A model generated the notes under the pieces. That model was not told the origin of the DNA. It saw nothing but the letters and a program-made list of their open reading frames with translations, and did no database searches. The position numbers and the translations under genes were made by a program. 64,000 nt of DNA from Neoroseomonas marina (GTDB lineage: Bacteria; Pseudomonadota; Alphaproteobacteria; Acetobacterales; Acetobacteraceae): NCBI RefSeq assembly GCF_012927745.1, contig NZ_JABBKX010000004.1, forward strand, positions 186,001 to 250,000, read 5' to 3'. Below, one piece after another: positions 1 to 12,350 of the stretch (position 1 is its first letter; each line of letters opens with the position of its first letter).

Positions 1-586
1 CGTTCCAGATCGCCATGATGGCGTCGCCGATATACTTGTCGATCGTCGCATGCTGCTCGAGCAGCGTGTCCGTCAGCGCCTGGAAGTAGGTGGAGGTGAT
101 GTGCATCAGCTCCTCCGGGTCCATGCGCTCGGCGATGGTGGTGAAGCCCTGCACGTCGGAGAACATCACCGTCAGGCGGCGTCGTTCCCCGCCGAGCTTC
201 GCCTCGGCGCCCTCGGCCATCAGCTTCCGCACCAGGTCGCGCGGGACATAGACGCTGAACAGCCGCAGCGCCGATTTCATCCCGCCCATCGCATCGGCCA
301 GCGCATCGACCTCGGCGGCGCCGCCCGGCGTCGGCGGCGTGCCGGCGAGGTCGAGCCGGCGGATGCCCTCCGCCTCCTTCGTCAGCACGCCCAGCCCGCG
401 TCCGACCCGATGCGCCGCGTAGGCAAGCCCGCCCGCCACGACGAGGATGCCTGCCGCGGCGACGAGGAAGGCGATGATCGAATTGCGCCCCGTTGCGGCG
501 ATCGCCACCGCGGCGAACAGCACGCCGCAACCGGCGAAGGCCATGCCGAGCATCGTCACCAGAAGCGAGGTCCCGCGGGACTTCAT
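1..586 (-). CDS. Class III adenylate/guanylate cyclase with membrane anchor and HAMP region (partial)
   Basis: The visible 195 residues start at ATG and run off the left edge of the window, so the C-terminus is missing. Two hydrophobic segments at about residues 8-28 and 33-53 form a membrane hairpin. A HAMP-like linker follows, then the start of a class III nucleotidyl cyclase domain with VMFSDVQGFT (first metal Asp) and TIDKYIGDAIMAIW (second metal Asp). The family makes cAMP or cGMP from ATP or GTP at the inner membrane; which substrate is used cannot be told because the specificity residues lie partly outside. The start codon overlaps the stop of the upstream HD-domain gene (ATGA), so the two are translationally coupled. 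Confidence 0.85.
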   Translation of the reverse strand, partial: MKSRGTSLLVTMLGMAFAGCGVLFAAVAIAATGRNSIIAFLVAAAGILVVAGGLAYAAHRVGRGLGVLTKEAEGIRRLDLAGTPPTPGGAAEVDALADAMGGMKSALRLFSVYVPRDLVRKLMAEGAEAKLGGERRRLTVMFSDVQGFTTIAERMDPEELMHITSTYFQALTDTLLEQHATIDKYIGDAIMAIWN

Positions 587-1506
587 GGGGGCGTCCGGCT
601 CCAGGCGAGGAGCGCCTCCGCATCCGCAATGTCCATGCCGTCCAGCGCCGCGGCCCCCGCCTCGGGCGTCGGCGGATCGATGGCGAGCCGTTGTGCGGCC
701 TGGCCGTACGCCTCGATCTGCGCGGCCCGAACGGCATCGAGACCCAGCAGGCGCGCTGCCGCTGTCGGTGCCGGCTGCATCCGCAGCAACGCGAGCCGCG
801 CGGCATGGCTCGCAACCTCCTCCGGGGAGGGCTGGCCGGCCGCGGCGAGTTCCACGGCCAGCAACCGGCCGAGCCGCGGGCCGAGCGTGGGCAGGGAACT
901 GCCGAACAGATCCGCCTCCCGCGCCAGCCGGCAGGCGAGATCGGGCGCCTCCGCGTCCTCCCAGGGCCAGGTGGTGGCGAGGATGATGCGGCGCATCTCC
1001 GCCACGCCCGCCGGATCCATGCCGCAGTCTGTGGCAATCTCGGCCGCGGCATCGGCCGAACGGCGTTCCAGTACGCCGCGGTCCCCATGGACCTTCCCAT
1101 CGTGCAGGAGGTCATGGGCGGTCATCGCGACAACGGCGATCGCCGCTTCGGCGGGCCCGAGCAGACCGAGCCGGCGCGCCGCCCCGGCGAGCCAGCCCAT
1201 GGCCAGCGCCGTTTCGGCCTGATGGTGGCGGCTGTGATAGGCAGGTTCGGCGCCTGGAGCGAATCCGGCGCCGTGCCGTTCCACCGCAGCGGCGATCCGG
1301 ATCGCGGCAGCGCCGGCGGGATCCGCATCCGCCTGCGCGTCGCCCGTGGCGGCGGTCAGGGCCTGTCGAACCGCGCCGACGACATCCGGGGGCGCCGCAC
1401 GGCGCAGCAACAACTGTCGTTCTGCGCTGGCGAGGGCCGCGCCCGGCGGTCCCGCGCCCAGCGCCAGGCTCAGCACGCTGTCGGCGCTCTCGGGCCCTGC
1501 GGCCAT
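583..1506 (-). CDS. HD-domain protein with class I cyclic-nucleotide phosphodiesterase-like metal site
   Basis: 307 residues from an ATG preceded by GGCGAGG; an ATG 27 nt further upstream is possible. The C-terminal two thirds carry an HD fold: YHSRHH (residues 90-95), AHDLLHDG (His131-Asp132, His135, Gly137) and EADLFG (Asp199). This resembles the class I 3',5'-cyclic nucleotide phosphodiesterase signature YHN-x2-H ... HD-x2-H-x-G ... ADL, with the same 36-residue step between the first ligand His and the HD pair. The gene overlaps the following cyclase gene by 4 nt, which fits turnover of the cyclase product. The function is inferred from motifs only; a generic HD phosphohydrolase is the alternative. 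The N-terminal 80 residues are Ala-rich and unassigned. Confidence 0.7.
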   Translation of the reverse strand: MAAGPESADSVLSLALGAGPPGAALASAERQLLLRRAAPPDVVGAVRQALTAATGDAQADADPAGAAAIRIAAAVERHGAGFAPGAEPAYHSRHHQAETALAMGWLAGAARRLGLLGPAEAAIAVVAMTAHDLLHDGKVHGDRGVLERRSADAAAEIATDCGMDPAGVAEMRRIILATTWPWEDAEAPDLACRLAREADLFGSSLPTLGPRLGRLLAVELAAAGQPSPEEVASHAARLALLRMQPAPTAAARLLGLDAVRAAQIEAYGQAAQRLAIDPPTPEAGAAALDGMDIADAEALLAWSRTPP

Positions 1507-1585: not shown

Positions 1586-3892
1586 TCAGGCGGCGGCGAC
1601 CTTCGGCCCGAGGCCGAGCGTCTTGCGCATCCGCACCAGCATCTCGCGTGCCTTGTCGCCGAGTTCCTCGTCCGGGCCGGCGACATGCTCGACGGCGGCC
1701 AGCGCCTTGCGCCGCTCCGCGGCTTCCGGCAGCAGCGTCGTCAGCGTGTCGAGCGCCTCGTCGCGCATCAGGGTCACGATCACCGTCTGCTCGCGGATGA
1801 TCGCCTGGCGCGCGGCGGGGCTCATGCCCACGAAGGGCGGCTCGGTCGTCAGCAGCGCGTTGGAGCGGGCGAGGCGGGAGCGCCGCACGCCGCCACGGGC
1901 ATCGGCGAGCAGGATCATCATGCGGATCACCGCCTCGGCGTAGCCGCCCTCGGCGACCTTGGCGCGCGCCTCGGAGAGATGCGCCGGCTCGACCTGCACC
2001 GACCGCCGCGCCGCCTCGGCCTCGGCCGCCGTGTCGTCCCCGGTCACGCCGACGGCCGCGAGGCCGCCATAGATCGCGTGGAAGGCGGTCTCGATGCTGG
2101 CGTCGCGCATGTCGCGCCAGGCGTCGATGCTGCGCTCGACCGTGTCGGCCCAGGCCTTCTCGAGGGCGAGGAACGGGTTGTCCTGCGCCGCGGGCTTGCG
2201 GTTCTGCCGCGCCATGCCCGCCATGGCCCGGATCGGCATCATGAAGGGGTTCATGTCGGAGAACATGTAGCGCCGCATGCGCATCGGGCTGGCCTGGCGC
2301 CGCGCCTCCGCGCCCGCCTCGGTCGCCGACTGGCGCACGATGGGGGAGACCAGCACGTCATAAAGATGCTGGTTCATCTCGGAGATCTTGGCGACGGCGG
2401 GGAAGGCCTCGTTGCTCGCGTCGCCCGACAGGGTGCGGATGTCGGCGATCTTCCGCTCCACCAGCTCGACCTGCCATTCCTCGTTGGCGCCGGTGCCCTC
2501 GTGACCGGTTATCTTCATCTCATAGAGACCGGGGGCGACCGCCTCGATCATCTCGAGCGTGGTCGCGATCTCGGAATGCTCCTTCTTGGCGACGGCGCCC
2601 GAGACGAAGATGCCGAGATGCCCGATCTGGTCGTGCAGCAGGTAGACGATGGTCTGGCCGAGCGACTTGATCTCCTGCTCGTCGCGATAGACGTCGGCGA
2701 TCCAGCGCAGGGCCTGGCCCACGGGCGTGATGTTGTCGCCCGAGGAGGCGAAGACGATCACCGGCGCCTTCACTTCCCGCATGTTGAAGGTCTCGCCGCC
2801 GCCCTGGGCGATCTGGCCCGAGGAGAAGCGGTTGCCGATGAAGAGGTTGTCGACGATCCACCGGATCTCGTCGCTCGTCATCAGGAAGTAGCCGCCCCAC
2901 CAGCGTTCGAACTCGAGGAAGCGGTCGGCCTCGCTGTCCACCTTCGAATAGAGGTCGAAGTACTTCTTGAACCAGGTGTTGCCGGGCGAGAGGCTCTCGA
3001 AATTCGCGACCAGCGACGCGCCGTCGAACTTCCCGTTGCCGAGGTCGGCCATCAGCGAGGCCGGCCAGCCGCCGCCCGCGAGGCCGCCGAGGTAACGCAT
3101 CGGGTTCCGGCCCTTCTCGCCGGCCCAATAGGACAGCGGGGCGCCGTTCAGCACGAGCGCGCCGACGGACTCAGGGGCCGCGGCCCCCAACATCATCGTC
3201 GCCCAGCCGCCCTGGCAGTTGCCGATCACGACCGGCTTCGGCGCGTCCGGATGCACCTTGGCGATGTGGGCCAGGAAGGTCGCCTCGGCCGCGGTCACGT
3301 CGAGGATCGTCTGCCCCTTCTCCGGCTCGCGGTAGAAGATGACGAAGTAGACGGGGTGGCGGCGGCGCAGCGCCACGCCGACCTGGCTGTCCGACTTGAA
3401 GCCGCCGATGCCCGCGCCGTGGCCGGCGCGCGGGTCGATGATGACGAAGGGGCGCAGCTTGGGGTCAGTCGCCGGGAAGCCCTCGGGCGGGGTGATCCGG
3501 ACCAGGGCGTAGTTCACCGGTCGGGCCAGTTTCCGGCCGTCGACCACCGTCTCGTAGTCGAAGACGAGCACCGGCGGGCAGCCCGCGCGCTCATGCTCGA
3601 CGAAGTTGTTCCCCGCCTGGCGCATCACGTCCCAGAACAGGATCAGCCGCTGCGCGGCATCGGCCGCATAGGCCTGCGCGTCCTGGGCCAGGGCGGCGGG
3701 GGTGCGGGCGAAGCGCGCGGCGAGGTCGCGCATCGCCTCCGCCGCGCCTGGGGGCGGGAAGGCGGGGGTCTGCACCGCGGCGTGCCGGCCTATCACGTCC
3801 GCGAGGGTGCGGACCTGGTCGAGCACGCGGGTCGTGGTCTCGCTCGCCTTCTCGGCGAACTCGCGGGCGGGAAAGCTCGGGGTCGCGGGCAT
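1586..3892 (-). CDS. DUF3141 family protein, PHA-synthase-like alpha/beta hydrolase
   Basis: 768 residues. The centre has an alpha/beta-hydrolase fold with a GNCQGG nucleophile elbow at Cys226, the G-x-C-x-G-G lipase-like box of polyhydroxyalkanoate synthases. SSGDN (Asp386) and DQIGHLG (His425) complete a likely Cys-Asp-His triad. A helical N-terminal region (1-130) and a long C-terminal region (440-768) without recognised motifs flank it. I assign DUF3141 from the overall sequence and from its usual neighbours, acetate kinase and the MaoC-Pta fusion. The family's reaction is not established; acyl transfer or polyester synthesis/turnover is a reasonable guess. It is the sixth gene of the minus-strand cluster, 49 bp after ackA. 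No signal peptide is seen. Confidence 0.85.
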   Translation of the reverse strand: MPATPSFPAREFAEKASETTTRVLDQVRTLADVIGRHAAVQTPAFPPPGAAEAMRDLAARFARTPAALAQDAQAYAADAAQRLILFWDVMRQAGNNFVEHERAGCPPVLVFDYETVVDGRKLARPVNYALVRITPPEGFPATDPKLRPFVIIDPRAGHGAGIGGFKSDSQVGVALRRRHPVYFVIFYREPEKGQTILDVTAAEATFLAHIAKVHPDAPKPVVIGNCQGGWATMMLGAAAPESVGALVLNGAPLSYWAGEKGRNPMRYLGGLAGGGWPASLMADLGNGKFDGASLVANFESLSPGNTWFKKYFDLYSKVDSEADRFLEFERWWGGYFLMTSDEIRWIVDNLFIGNRFSSGQIAQGGGETFNMREVKAPVIVFASSGDNITPVGQALRWIADVYRDEQEIKSLGQTIVYLLHDQIGHLGIFVSGAVAKKEHSEIATTLEMIEAVAPGLYEMKITGHEGTGANEEWQVELVERKIADIRTLSGDASNEAFPAVAKISEMNQHLYDVLVSPIVRQSATEAGAEARRQASPMRMRRYMFSDMNPFMMPIRAMAGMARQNRKPAAQDNPFLALEKAWADTVERSIDAWRDMRDASIETAFHAIYGGLAAVGVTGDDTAAEAEAARRSVQVEPAHLSEARAKVAEGGYAEAVIRMMILLADARGGVRRSRLARSNALLTTEPPFVGMSPAARQAIIREQTVIVTLMRDEALDTLTTLLPEAAERRKALAAVEHVAGPDEELGDKAREMLVRMRKTLGLGPKVAAA

Positions 3893-3941: not shown

Positions 3942-5138
3942 TCAAGCCCATTTGCTGCGGCGCAACAAATTCAGGACATGCCGCGCGATCATGCCTTCCT
4001 CGTCCGTGGCGCGGACCAGGACGCGGGTGGCCGCCCCGGGGCGGGAGATCTCCCGCTCATTGGCTTGGTTCCGCGCCGGATCGATGTCGATTCCGAGGAA
4101 TCCGAGGCCTTCGCAGATGCGGGCGCGCAGATCCCGCGCGTTCTCCCCGATGCCCGCGGTGAAGACCAGGCCGTCGAGGCCGCCGAGCGCGGCCGCCAGG
4201 GCCCCGATCTCCCGCCGCACCCGCCAGGCGTAGTAGGCGAGCGCCTGCGCGGCGCGGGGCTCGGCGCTGGCCTCGAGGTCGCGGACATCCTGGCTGATCC
4301 CCGACATGCCCTTCAGCCCGGCATTGCCGTAGAGCAGCTTCTGGAGCGCGGCGGGCTCCATGCCTTCCGTCATCAGCAGATGCAACAGCACGCCGGGATC
4401 GATCTGCCCGCAGCGCGTGCCCATCGGCACGCCGTCCAGCGCGGTGAAGCCCATGGTGCTGTCCACGCTCCGTCCGCCGCGCATGGCACAGAGCGAGGAA
4501 CCGTTCCCGAGATGCGCCACCACGACGCGGCCGGCGGCCAAAGCGGGCTCCGCCTCGGCGAGGTTGGCGGCGATGTATTCGTAGGACAGGCCGTGGAAGC
4601 CGTAGCGCCGGATGCCTCGCGCGTAGAATTCGGGCGGCAGGGCGAAGGTGTCGGCCTCCCACGCATGGCTGCGGTGGAAGGAGGTGTCGAAGCAGGCGAC
4701 CTGCGGCACGCCCGGCAGCCGCGCCCGGGACGCCGCGATGCCGGCGAGGTTGTGCGGCTGGTGCAGCGGGGCGAGCGGGGCCAGCGCCTCGAGCTGCGCC
4801 ATCACCGCATCGTCGATCAGCACAGGCGCGACCAGGTCCGGCCCGCCATGCACCACGCGGTGCCCGACCGCGATGATCCGCCGCCCGGCCATGGCCGGGG
4901 AGAGTTCCTTGGCGATGACCTCGAGCGCCGCGCCGTGGTTCGCCACGTCCGGCCCGGCCCAGCGATGGTCGGCCAGCACGTGCCGCGTCGCGTCGCGCGC
5001 GATGAGGTGGGGGCTGGCGCCGATGCCTTCCATCTGCCCTTCGAAGCGCGTCTCCGCATCCCCGCCGACGATGTCGAAGAGCTCGAACTTGATGGAGGAG
5101 GAACCGGCGTTGAGGACGAGGATTGCGTCGCTCGTCAT
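3942..5138 (-). CDS. ackA: Acetate/propionate kinase
   Basis: 398 residues, the usual length. The start is the ATG that overlaps the stop of the upstream MaoC-Pta gene (ATGA); a longer reading frame upstream is not needed. The N-terminus ILVLNAGSSSIKFELF is the ASKHA phosphate-1 signature of acetokinases, VAHLGNGSS and the DTTMGF-like stretch (here DSTMGFTALDGVPMGTR) are the family signatures, and FTAGIGEN lies near the C-terminus. It catalyses ATP + acetate (or another short acid) to acyl phosphate + ADP, reversibly, in the cytosol. Together with the phosphotransacylase domain next door it links acyl-CoA to substrate-level phosphorylation or acid activation. Confidence 0.95.
   Translation of the reverse strand: MTSDAILVLNAGSSSIKFELFDIVGGDAETRFEGQMEGIGASPHLIARDATRHVLADHRWAGPDVANHGAALEVIAKELSPAMAGRRIIAVGHRVVHGGPDLVAPVLIDDAVMAQLEALAPLAPLHQPHNLAGIAASRARLPGVPQVACFDTSFHRSHAWEADTFALPPEFYARGIRRYGFHGLSYEYIAANLAEAEPALAAGRVVVAHLGNGSSLCAMRGGRSVDSTMGFTALDGVPMGTRCGQIDPGVLLHLLMTEGMEPAALQKLLYGNAGLKGMSGISQDVRDLEASAEPRAAQALAYYAWRVRREIGALAAALGGLDGLVFTAGIGENARDLRARICEGLGFLGIDIDPARNQANEREISRPGAATRVLVRATDEEGMIARHVLNLLRRSKWA
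3952..3965. promoter_or_regulatory. TTGC-N6-GCAA site near the 3' end of ackA, upstream of DUF3141
   Basis: TTGC-TGCGGC-GCAA lies in the last codons of ackA, about 60 nt upstream of the DUF3141 start. The same TTGC-N6-GCAA arrangement occurs in the divergent promoter region of fabI. An operator role is inference; the TGC/GCA-rich palindrome is reminiscent of sites of PhaR-type regulators, which I cannot verify. Confidence 0.3.
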
Positions 5139-6553
5139 GCGCCGAGCTCCGGCACCAGGCATGTCCCCGTCCGCCGCCAATGGCCGTAGAGCACCGCGAG
5201 TGCGGCCGACATCAGCCGGGCGTGCTCGTCATCGGCACGCGAGGTCAGCATCACCGGCACCTTGGCGCCGACCACGATGCCGCCGGTGTCGGCCTGGGAG
5301 AGGAACACCAGCTGCTTCGCCAGCATGTTCCCCGCCTCGAGGTTCGGCGCCACCAGCACGTCGGCGCGGCCCGCGACCGTGGAATGGATCCCCTTGGTGC
5401 GTGCGGCCTCGAGGTCCACGGCGTTGTCCATGGCGAGCGGCCCATCGACCAGCCCGCCCTTGATCTGCCCGCGATCGGCCATCTTCGCCAGCGCGGCCGC
5501 GTCGATGGTGGACGGGATCGCCGGGTTGATGGTCTCGACGGCCGACAGGATGCCGACGCGCGGTTCCCCGATGCCGATCGCCTGCGCCAGGTCGATCGCG
5601 TTCTGCACGATGTCCGCCTTGGTGGTCAGGTCGGGCAGGATGTTGATCGCCGCGTCGGTGATTATCATCAGCCCCTCATGACCCGGGATGTCGAGCACGA
5701 AGCAGTGGCTGATCCGCCGCCCGGCGCGCAGCCCGCCGTCGGATTTGGTGACGTGGCGCAGCACCTCGTCGGAATGGATGTTGCCCTTCATCACCGCCTC
5801 GGCCTTGCCCTCGTGGACCAGGCAGACGGCGCGGGCGGGGGCGTCGTGGGCATCGGCGACGTTCTCGATCGCGACGCCGGCGAGATCCCAGCCGATCTTC
5901 TGCGCCTCGGCGCGGATCTTCGCCTCGGGACCGACCAGGATCGGGGCGATCAGGCCTTCCTTCGTCGCTTCCCACGCGCCGCCGAGCGAATTGTCGTCCG
6001 TGGGCGCCGCGATCGCGGTGGGCATCGGCGGGATGCCGCGGCAGGCGGCGAGGAGCCGCGAGAACTTACCGCGCTTCACCAGCGTCAGCTCGGGGATGAC
6101 GACGCCATCGGTCTCGACGCGCGTCAGCGGCGGGCTGATCTCCGCCGTGCCGTCGCAGACCAGCGTCCCATCCGCCTTCTCGAGCCGGCAATCCATGACG
6201 AGGATGTTGCCGGCCAGCTTCTCGCGCACGGTCACGGTGGCGATGACGGCGTCGCCGGCCTCGACGCGGGCGAGGAAGCGCAGCTGCTGCGCGCGGTACA
6301 CCGTGCCCGGCCCTGGCAGCCTGTTGCCGAACACCGCCGAGAACAGCGAGCCGCACCACATGGCGGGCGCGACGGGCGGACGGCCGATCTCCTGCTCGGC
6401 TTCGCCCGGCAGGTGAGCGGGGTTCAGGTTGCCCGAGGCATGGGCGAAGACGACCAGGTCGTTCGGCGTGCAGACGCGCGTGAGGCTCGCGCTTTCGCCT
6501 TCCTTGATGTCGTCCCAGGAACGCCCGACCAGGGCAGGGGCGGTGATCGTCAC
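5135..6553 (-). CDS. Bifunctional MaoC-type hydratase / phosphate acyltransferase
   Basis: 472 residues from a GTG start that overlaps the stop of the CoA-transferase beta gene (GTGA). Residues 1-145 form a MaoC/hot-dog domain (FAHASGNLNPAH holds the dehydratase-type D/H region, here Asn-Pro-Ala-His). Residues about 165-472 form a phosphate acetyl/butyryltransferase domain (VGPEAKI, GNIHSDEVL, ITDAAINI, VDGPLAMDNAV). The family interconverts acyl-CoA + phosphate and acyl phosphate + CoA. The fusion is known in alphaproteobacteria as enoyl-CoA hydratase/phosphate acetyltransferase. Chain-length preference cannot be read from the sequence; a butyryl-type substrate would fit the MaoC partner. 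In the hydratase motif the position often occupied by Asp is Asn, so the first domain may bind rather than hydrate enoyl-CoA. Confidence 0.9.
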   Translation of the reverse strand: MTITAPALVGRSWDDIKEGESASLTRVCTPNDLVVFAHASGNLNPAHLPGEAEQEIGRPPVAPAMWCGSLFSAVFGNRLPGPGTVYRAQQLRFLARVEAGDAVIATVTVREKLAGNILVMDCRLEKADGTLVCDGTAEISPPLTRVETDGVVIPELTLVKRGKFSRLLAACRGIPPMPTAIAAPTDDNSLGGAWEATKEGLIAPILVGPEAKIRAEAQKIGWDLAGVAIENVADAHDAPARAVCLVHEGKAEAVMKGNIHSDEVLRHVTKSDGGLRAGRRISHCFVLDIPGHEGLMIITDAAINILPDLTTKADIVQNAIDLAQAIGIGEPRVGILSAVETINPAIPSTIDAAALAKMADRGQIKGGLVDGPLAMDNAVDLEAARTKGIHSTVAGRADVLVAPNLEAGNMLAKQLVFLSQADTGGIVVGAKVPVMLTSRADDEHARLMSAALAVLYGHWRRTGTCLVPELGA

Positions 6554-10769: not shown

Positions 10770-12350
10770 ATGCAGGAAACCGTTCGCCACCCGGTCGCCA
10801 ACTCCGTGGACCGGTTCCTGACCTTCGCTTTCGCCGCCGCCGAGCTTCTCGTCGAAACCGATGCCGACGGCCGGATCACCTTTGCCGAGGGCGCCTTTCC
10901 CGCGCGCTTCGGCCGGCCGGGTCGCACCTTCCTCGGTCATCCCGTTCAGGAACTTGTCGCGCGCGACCTGCGCTCCGGGATGGGCACGGCCCTCGAACTG
11001 CTCAACGCAACGGGCCGCATCCGGCCGACCGCGATCCGGCTGTCCGATCGGGACCGCTCGGCCTTCAGCGTCGCCGGCCTCGCCGCACCGGGGCGGTCCG
11101 GACGGTTCTGCCTGACCTTCTCCCCGCTGCCGGACGACCTGCCGGGAGGGCCATTGCCGGGTGGCCCGGGGTTCGCCCGCGCCGCCGAGGAAGTTCTGCG
11201 CCGTGGGGAGGGGGCGGCCGCGCTCGGGCTGATCGAGCTGACGGGGGATGGCGGAGCGCTGGCCCCGCGGGCGGATCTCGCGGCGCGCATCCAGTCCGTG
11301 CTGGCGGCGCAGGGCGGGACCGGGACGGTCGCGGCCGACCTCGGCGCCGGCCGCTTCGGGCTCCTTCCGGGGGAAGGGGCACCGGATCTCGCGGAGGTCT
11401 CGGCGCATGTCGCGCGGCTGCTCGCGCAGCACGGGCTGCCGGGGCGGGTCGGAGCGCGCGCGCTGCCGCTGGCCGGGGAGGGGCTGAGCCCGCTTCAGGC
11501 GACGCGCGCGTTGCGCTTCGCGCTGTCCGCCTTCGCCCGCGGCGGCGATGCGGCGTTGGAGAAGGCCGGCTTCGCCGGCGGCCTCGCGGGCTTCGTCGAC
11601 AGTGCGGCCGAGCGTGCGGCGGCATTGCGCGCGACCATCGCGGACCGCCGCTTCCGCCTCGCCTTCCAGCCGATCGTGCTGCTGGCCGACCGCCAGCCGC
11701 ACCATTACGAGGCCCTGCTGCGGCCGATCCCGACGCCGGGCACGCCGTTCTCCGAAGCCTCGGAGTTCATCGCCCTGGCGGAAACCGTGGGATTGTCGGA
11801 GACGCTCGACTGGGCGGTGGTGGAGACCGCCTGCGAGGCCGCGCGCGCAGCCAGCGGGGCGCGGATCGCCTGCAACCTGTCGGGCCTGTCGCTGCAGTCC
11901 CGTGCGTTCCGGGACCGGCTCTGCGGCATGCTGCGGGAGGCTCCCGCCCTGGCCGAGCGCCTGCTGGTCGAGATCACCGAGACGGCCGAGATCGAGGACG
12001 AGCCCGAGGCCCGGCGCACCGTCGACGCGCTGCGCGACCTCGGCCTGCCGATCTGCCTGGACGATTTCGGCGCCGGGGCGGCGGCCTTCCGCTATCTCCG
12101 GGCCTTCCGCGTGGACTTCGTGAAGGTGGACGGGGTCTATGTCTCCCATGCGGTCGAAAGCGCCCGCGACCGGGGCTTCATCGCGGCCATGGTCGACCTG
12201 GCCCGCACCGTGGGTGCCGAGGTGGTGGCCGAGCGCATCGAGACCGAGGCGCAGGCCACCCTGATGCGCGATCTGGGCGTGGGATTCGGGCAGGGCTACC
12301 TGTTCGGGCGCCCCGGCGCGCTTCCTGGCGGCGACGGGCCCTATCGCTGA
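10770..12350 (+). CDS. EAL-domain cyclic-di-GMP phosphodiesterase with PAS-like and degenerate GGDEF regions
   Basis: 526 residues, no membrane segment. Residues 15-120 look like a PAS sensor (LLVETDADGRITFAEG). Residues 145-260 resemble a GGDEF domain in which the signature is replaced by LGAGRFGLL, so it should not make c-di-GMP. The C-terminal EAL domain is complete: Glu314 in YEALLRP, NLSG, the Glu of EITE, DDFGAG, the Lys of VKVDG, the Glu of AERIET and the Gln of GQGYLFGRP. It should therefore linearise c-di-GMP to pGpG in the cytosol. The partner signal is unknown. The next gene, mntP, follows after 63 bp with its own regulatory palindrome. Confidence 0.9.
   Translation: MQETVRHPVANSVDRFLTFAFAAAELLVETDADGRITFAEGAFPARFGRPGRTFLGHPVQELVARDLRSGMGTALELLNATGRIRPTAIRLSDRDRSAFSVAGLAAPGRSGRFCLTFSPLPDDLPGGPLPGGPGFARAAEEVLRRGEGAAALGLIELTGDGGALAPRADLAARIQSVLAAQGGTGTVAADLGAGRFGLLPGEGAPDLAEVSAHVARLLAQHGLPGRVGARALPLAGEGLSPLQATRALRFALSAFARGGDAALEKAGFAGGLAGFVDSAAERAAALRATIADRRFRLAFQPIVLLADRQPHHYEALLRPIPTPGTPFSEASEFIALAETVGLSETLDWAVVETACEAARAASGARIACNLSGLSLQSRAFRDRLCGMLREAPALAERLLVEITETAEIEDEPEARRTVDALRDLGLPICLDDFGAGAAAFRYLRAFRVDFVKVDGVYVSHAVESARDRGFIAAMVDLARTVGAEVVAERIETEAQATLMRDLGVGFGQGYLFGRPGALPGGDGPYR

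Follow-up and report, generated by a model that had tools for sequence, protein, structure and literature searches.

Class I cyclic-nucleotide phosphodiesterases (PDEs) are the family targeted by sildenafil and roflumilast; the cAMP PDEs known from bacteria have, to our knowledge, other folds. Class I enzymes have been placed in eukaryotes (PMC8115329, PMC11988041), and a few bacterial and archaeal examples have been noted (PMC10865986). That an adenylate cyclase (AC) and a class I PDE can be joined is known from plants, in the protein CAPE (COMBINED AC with PDE; PMC5159850). The PDE domains of plant CAPEs carry Asn or Thr in place of the canonical purine-binding Gln; the Marchantia protein has Thr at this position and a PDE described as specific for cAMP (PMC8115329), so an enzyme without the Gln may still be active.

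Here we analyse a gene pair at the edge of a 64,000-nucleotide stretch of the Neoroseomonas marina genome (hereafter the window; G000:C26:186001-250000, from a genome of 5.15 Mb), in which a gene encoding an HD-domain protein overlaps a membrane cyclase gene. We put at roughly two in three the probability that the pair consists of a translationally coupled adenylate cyclase and a minimal bacterial class I-like PDE, predicted to set cAMP levels together. Computed support for the coupled unit comes from gene coupling, conservation, fold class, the catalytic residues of the HD protein and the adenylate-type residues of the cyclase. The open-access literature searched, from which subscription journals are largely missing, yielded no account of such a pair in bacteria.

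Coupling and co-occurrence of the two genes

The HD-domain protein (P0001; 307 aa, class I PDE-like) is encoded at positions 583..1506 on the minus strand; a longer alternative frame opens at 1686, and relatives start at the ATG at 1506. The HD protein of its closest named relative, Neoroseomonas oryzicola, is 80% identical. A membrane class III adenylate-type cyclase follows on the same strand, with its first 195 codons at 1..586; the gene runs past the first base of the window to G000:C26:185378 (L001:5378), and the full protein (P0002; L001:5378-6586, minus strand; 402 aa) was read from the genome beyond. As the first-pass annotation had proposed, the two genes overlap by 4 nt, at an ATGA (583..586, minus strand) that combines the cyclase start with the TGA stop of the HD gene, and this overlap recurs in many genomes: of 19 loci, which span several genera, 17 overlap by exactly 4 nt and one by 1 nt, and that of Rubrivivax has a 2-nt gap instead.

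The order HD-cyclase-patatin is kept in Neoroseomonas, Plastoroseomonas, Falsiroseomonas, Siccirubricoccus and a Roseomonas MAG, and outside the genus the three genes recur behind pta-ackA genes. In the homologous pair of Rubrivivax the cyclase sensor is CHASE2 rather than dCache, which identifies the PDE and cyclase, not the sensor, as the conserved unit. Chance adjacency, for which nothing speaks beyond the presence of class III cyclases in the genome (three only), is refuted by this conservation, since order and overlap recur across several genera, Rubrivivax with its differently built cyclase among them; its probability is negligible.

A survey of related genomes, which the first-pass annotation had suggested, revealed strong co-occurrence. 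Among 35 genomes of the genus the HD gene was detected in 17 and the orthologous cyclase in 18; the one apparent ‘cyclase only’ genome (G013) was rejected as such, its HD gene running off the end of a contig. Both genes are thus present in 18 genomes and neither in 17 (Fisher 2e-10, kinship ignored), a split that overstates the number of independent events, the genomes of a genus being related. Sequence identities of the HD protein and the cyclase co-vary across the 19 loci (Spearman 0.89), as expected under vertical co-inheritance.

More divergent HD relatives in two Burkholderiales genomes (L152, L156) lie within a few kb of a class III cyclase, in differing arrangements. Several distant relatives have no adjacent cyclase, which indicates that the HD family can operate without such a neighbour. 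A search for plasmid copies of the pair found none. In Elioraea thermophila (L084 / L171) frame breaks interrupt the DUF3141, HD, cyclase and patatin genes alike within one stretch, which suggests general local decay or sequence error; co-decay of the pair is not claimed, the DUF3141 and patatin genes at this locus being broken as well.

The HD protein and class I phosphodiesterases

Alignment of a 28-member family profile (A3) with PDE4D by HHalign pairs H91, H95, H131, D132, H135, G137, E147, T178 and D199 of the HD protein with PDE4D catalytic residues (PDE4 numbering was re-derived on a PDE4D sequence that proved identical to the PDB chains). In YHSRHH (residues 90-95; 1222..1239, here and below on the minus strand), H91 corresponds to the PDE4 general acid H160 and H95 to the metal ligand H164; in HDLLHDG (131-137; 1096..1116), H131 and D132 correspond to H200 and D201, H135 to H204, and G137 to G206. 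E147 of VLE (145-147; 1066..1074) aligns with E230, T178 of LAT (176-178; 973..981) with T271, and D199 of EADLFGSS (197-204; 895..918) with the metal ligand D318. The motifs YHSRHH, HDLLHDG and EADLFG (197-202), and the 36-residue step from His 95 to the HD pair, all named in the first-pass annotation, are confirmed. The class I metal ligands (H95, H131, D132, D199) and the catalytic H91 are all present, and every one of the aligned catalytic and metal residues is invariant in 28 relatives.

This invariance bears on a further reading, in which the HD protein does not hydrolyse but regulates the cyclase or binds cyclic nucleotides as its partner, and the pair encodes a complex. Subunits of one complex also show 4-nt overlaps and identical phyletic patterns; conserved metal and acid residues, however, are unneeded by a pseudo-enzyme, and we regard a partner without hydrolytic activity as quite improbable.

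Relative to PDE4, the HD protein is shortened at two places, between HDxxHxG and VLE, where about 14 residues preceding E230 have no counterpart before E147, and between AT and ADL. The distance from the HD Asp (132) to the last Asp (199) is 67 residues as against 117 in PDE4, in keeping with the earlier remark that it is shorter than in eukaryotic PDEs. The step from H95 to the HD pair (131/132) is 36 residues, equal to that from H164 to H200 in PDE4, as had been claimed; its use as proof of class I identity was rejected, the same step being common to another HD family. Members of that family (YHNxEHT...HDIGY, AADFIGQLGDP; L111, L112, L114, L115, L117, L118, L120) score just under PDEase_I, and within the family of the HD protein itself the step varies from 34 to 40 residues.

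The PDE4 purine-binding residue Q369 sits in a QxxFI stretch that motif alignment matches to RxxLL or RxxFL in the HD family. The canonical Gln therefore seems to be replaced by Arg, the candidate being R237 (796..798, minus strand), which is invariant wherever sequence covers the position; Q263 (718..720, minus strand), present in 27 of the 28 relatives, is an alternative candidate for a base-contacting Gln. The class I signature H-D-[LIVMFY]-x-H-x-[AG]-x(2)-[NQ]-x-[LIVMFY], as given in PMC10865986, is not matched by P0001, which reads HDLLHDGKVHGD and has no N/Q (H140); it is matched in full by L088 and L089, both among the 28 relatives, and by L061.

P0001 scores 11.2 bits against Pfam PDEase_I (PF00233), under the cut-off of 24.8 and hence outside formal membership; single-sequence searches gave weak matches, with both Pfam families short of their cut-offs (PDEase_I 0.3, HD 0.058) and PDE8A in the PDB at 1.2, and profiles did much better. 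Among distant members PDEase_I is the commonest Pfam match and usually the best family, nearly always slightly under the cut-off, which one of them (L062) exceeds with 27.6. Searched against PDB sequences, profile A3 matched class I PDEs, with a best value of 1.7e-4 and PDEs making up all 60 matches listed; extending the profile with more distant members gave 3.4e-7 and 4.1e-8. A control profile (A5) built on the YHNxEHT...HDIGY family reached an insignificant 0.017 against PDEs, and with a second (A6), from a Burkholderiales HD family, PDE matches were not found; the PDE signal of the HD family therefore exceeds a generic YH...HD match, and its margin over the controls is two orders of magnitude, not ten. 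The profile search that had been proposed as a check turned up no other HD family above its own cut-off in the libraries searched, COG profiles not being among them. Scans of 14 whole control genomes with PF00233 gave no match, an absence that means little because the HD family falls below the reach of this model.

The fold points the same way. An AlphaFold2 model of P0001 is confident (pLDDT 94.8, pTM 0.92) and shows the predicted all-helical class I catalytic fold; its 50 best Foldseek matches in the PDB are class I PDEs throughout (PDE2A, 5A, 10A, 8A, 6C), at probability 1.00 and a moderate TM of 0.37-0.56 over about 300 columns. For the Rubrivivax homologue (L088:5833-6675), modelled separately (pLDDT 92.1), ranks 1-34 are class I PDEs only, including trypanosomal, choanoflagellate and yeast enzymes, with TM up to 0.67 for PDE4D2; the next HD proteins follow at E of 0.3 or worse. 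Structure prediction, a further check proposed at first pass, thus put class I catalytic domains ahead of the other solved HD families. As far as fold comparison and profiles could probe them, neither of the two outcomes that the first-pass annotation had named as refuting was observed. Uncharacterised phage HD phosphohydrolases in a viral model library, S5WK87 of Pseudomonas phage PaBG among them, resemble P0001 to about the same degree as the PDEs. By these models the fold is class I-like among solved proteins, and the fold alone leaves the substrate unfixed.

The class I PDE-like identity claimed for the HD protein is accordingly supported by fold, profile and invariant residues, and fails at the formal Pfam PDEase_I cut-off. 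That shortfall, the apparent Arg at the presumed purine-binding position, the phage phosphohydrolase matches and the existence of cyclase-free relatives would all suit an enzyme of class I fold acting on some other substrate (a different nucleotide, a phosphomonoester or a phosphodiester), with a metabolic or regulatory link to the cyclase. We nevertheless consider such a substrate unlikely, given the persistent one-to-one pairing with a cyclase, a complete class I catalytic set including HDxxHxG, VLE, AT and ADL, and good matches among solved HD proteins to class I PDEs only; the plant CAPE PDEs are without the Gln, and for the Marchantia one cAMP specificity is described (PMC8115329).

The cyclase and the neighbouring genes

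The cyclase matches Pfam Guanylate_cyc (PF00211) with 66.8 bits (cut-off 21.9) and has two TM-like helices, at residues 12-30 and 37-55. Alignment with the adenylate cyclases CyaB and CyaC identifies the first metal Asp, D144 (155..157, minus strand), in FSDVQGF, and the adenine-type Lys, K184, and second metal Asp, D188 (K184 to D188 at 23..37, minus strand), in DKYIGD; together with T258, N265 and R269, these residues match both reference enzymes and make up the class III adenylate cyclase set (two metal Asp, Lys/Thr, Asn, Arg). A Lys and Thr in the adenine pocket predict cAMP over cGMP. Because the cyclase has these adenine-type residues, cAMP is the better supported of the two as its predicted product.

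In Plastoroseomonas, Falsiroseomonas, a Roseomonas MAG and some Neoroseomonas the cyclase is about 700 aa long and carries HAMP, and several of these long forms have a sub-threshold dCache_1 match. CHASE2, considered as the sensor of the long form, was rejected for Acetobacteraceae, where the sub-threshold dCache_1 and HAMP stand in its place, and is right for Rubrivivax. About ten Neoroseomonas genomes, including that of the window, encode a cyclase that lacks the periplasmic sensor of about 300 residues and keeps the two TM helices (L001:5378-6586, compared with L025:3884-5998, L064, L067, L071 and L075); others retain the 700-aa form. In the sensor-less Neoroseomonas, signal input is lost while the pairing with the PDE gene is retained.

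Upstream of the HD gene, at a distance of 79 nt, lies a DUF3141 gene (1586..3892, minus strand) that all 35 genomes of the genus carry, those without the pair included. Beyond it are the conserved neighbours acetate/propionate kinase (3942..5138, minus strand) and MaoC-type hydratase/phosphate acetyltransferase (5135..6553, minus strand); a CoA transferase is also among the conserved metabolic neighbours, with the hydratase/phosphotransacetylase, acetate kinase, DUF3141 and patatin genes. This setting suggests, without proving it, a tie between the pair and acyl-phosphate or PHA metabolism. A PAS-EAL protein, a probable c-di-GMP phosphodiesterase, is encoded about 9 kb from the pair (10770-12350, plus strand).

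On the downstream side, a patatin-like phospholipase gene (L001:4349-5371) begins 6 nt after the cyclase and stays beside the pair in the loci of Acetobacteraceae; it is a possible member of the operon and a possible part of its output. A cyclase beside a phospholipase gene could also point to anti-phage defence of the Pycsar/CBASS type, in which the HD protein would serve as off-switch, and PADLOC PycC models do match the cyclase domain (best 3.7e-31); the patatin has weak matches (4.4e-7) to phospholipase effector models. These matches were judged generic and the Pycsar/CBASS identity was rejected: the cyclase is adenine-type in its Lys/Thr and resembles ordinary sensor-bearing adenylate cyclases, the Pfam content of the phospholipase is a patatin domain only, the NCBIfam CBASS_lipase score of 22.8 lies below the required 200, and the locus lies within a conserved metabolic neighbourhood. 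The Pycsar combination of a pyrimidine cyclase and a cNMP-binding effector was not found here, the residues being adenine-type and the neighbour patatin-only. We give an anti-phage function very little credence.

Proposed function and comparison with known systems

In the cAMP-setting unit that we favour, one message would yield the soluble hydrolase first and then, by re-initiation at the ATGA, the membrane cyclase, and coupled translation would fix the ratio of the two. The HD protein would be a soluble, shortened class I-type PDE with a metal centre of H95, H131, D132 and D199 and with H91 as general acid, and would hydrolyse 3',5'-cAMP. The cyclase would raise cAMP only when stimulated, and the hydrolase would hold the resting level low and end the signal quickly; relatives of the cyclase appear to sense through a periplasmic dCache-like domain with HAMP, and the window copy appears to have lost the periplasmic part. 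Nine cNMP-binding domains above cut-off in the genome are candidate readers of the signal, none of them linked to the pair. The output may extend to acetyl-phosphate/PHA-type metabolism and to the downstream patatin gene.

If this is true, a conserved bacterial class I-like family paired one-to-one with adenylate cyclases would offer a compact system in which to study how cAMP signals are made and broken down, and a way to approach the origin of the class I fold; a gene that many Acetobacteraceae carry without annotation would also gain a function. More tentatively, and with somewhat less than even confidence, the family could represent an undescribed bacterial branch of class I PDEs, pared down further than the eukaryotic one and perhaps predating it, that is encoded in operons with class III adenylate cyclases in Alpha- and Betaproteobacteria as a two-gene counterpart of the plant CAPE fusion.

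Several described systems share parts of this design. The class I PDEs (PDE4, PDE7, PDE8, PDE2; PF00233) resemble the HD protein in fold, in the motif series YHxxxH...HDxxHxG...VLE...AT...ADL and in the 36-residue step, whereas the HD protein is bacterial, about 50 residues shorter from HD to last Asp and under the Pfam cut-off, and in the window lacks the signature N/Q and apparently has Arg at the Gln-switch position. Pseudomonas aeruginosa CyaB and Spirulina CyaC share the catalytic domain and all six key residues with the cyclase, which differs in being paired with a PDE gene and in having a sensor that is dCache-HAMP, CHASE2 or lost. The class III PDEs CpdA and Rv0805, which are metallophosphoesterases, have presumably the same task, cAMP removal, and are unrelated to the HD protein in fold and motifs (PMC4320098, PMC13087886). 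Pycsar and CBASS are alike in placing a cyclase next to a patatin-like gene; the pair departs from them in its adenylate-type cyclase, its HD enzyme, its metabolic context and the lack of any cNMP-binding effector found. The nearest known analogue is CAPE of Marchantia and other streptophytes (PMC5159850, PMC8115329), in which a class I PDE is likewise followed, from N- to C-terminus, by a membrane-associated class III adenylate cyclase, and in which the PDE domain lacks the canonical Gln, a residue that seems to be replaced in the HD protein as well. CAPE is one fused eukaryotic protein, whereas the pair consists of two overlapping bacterial genes with a stop codon between them.
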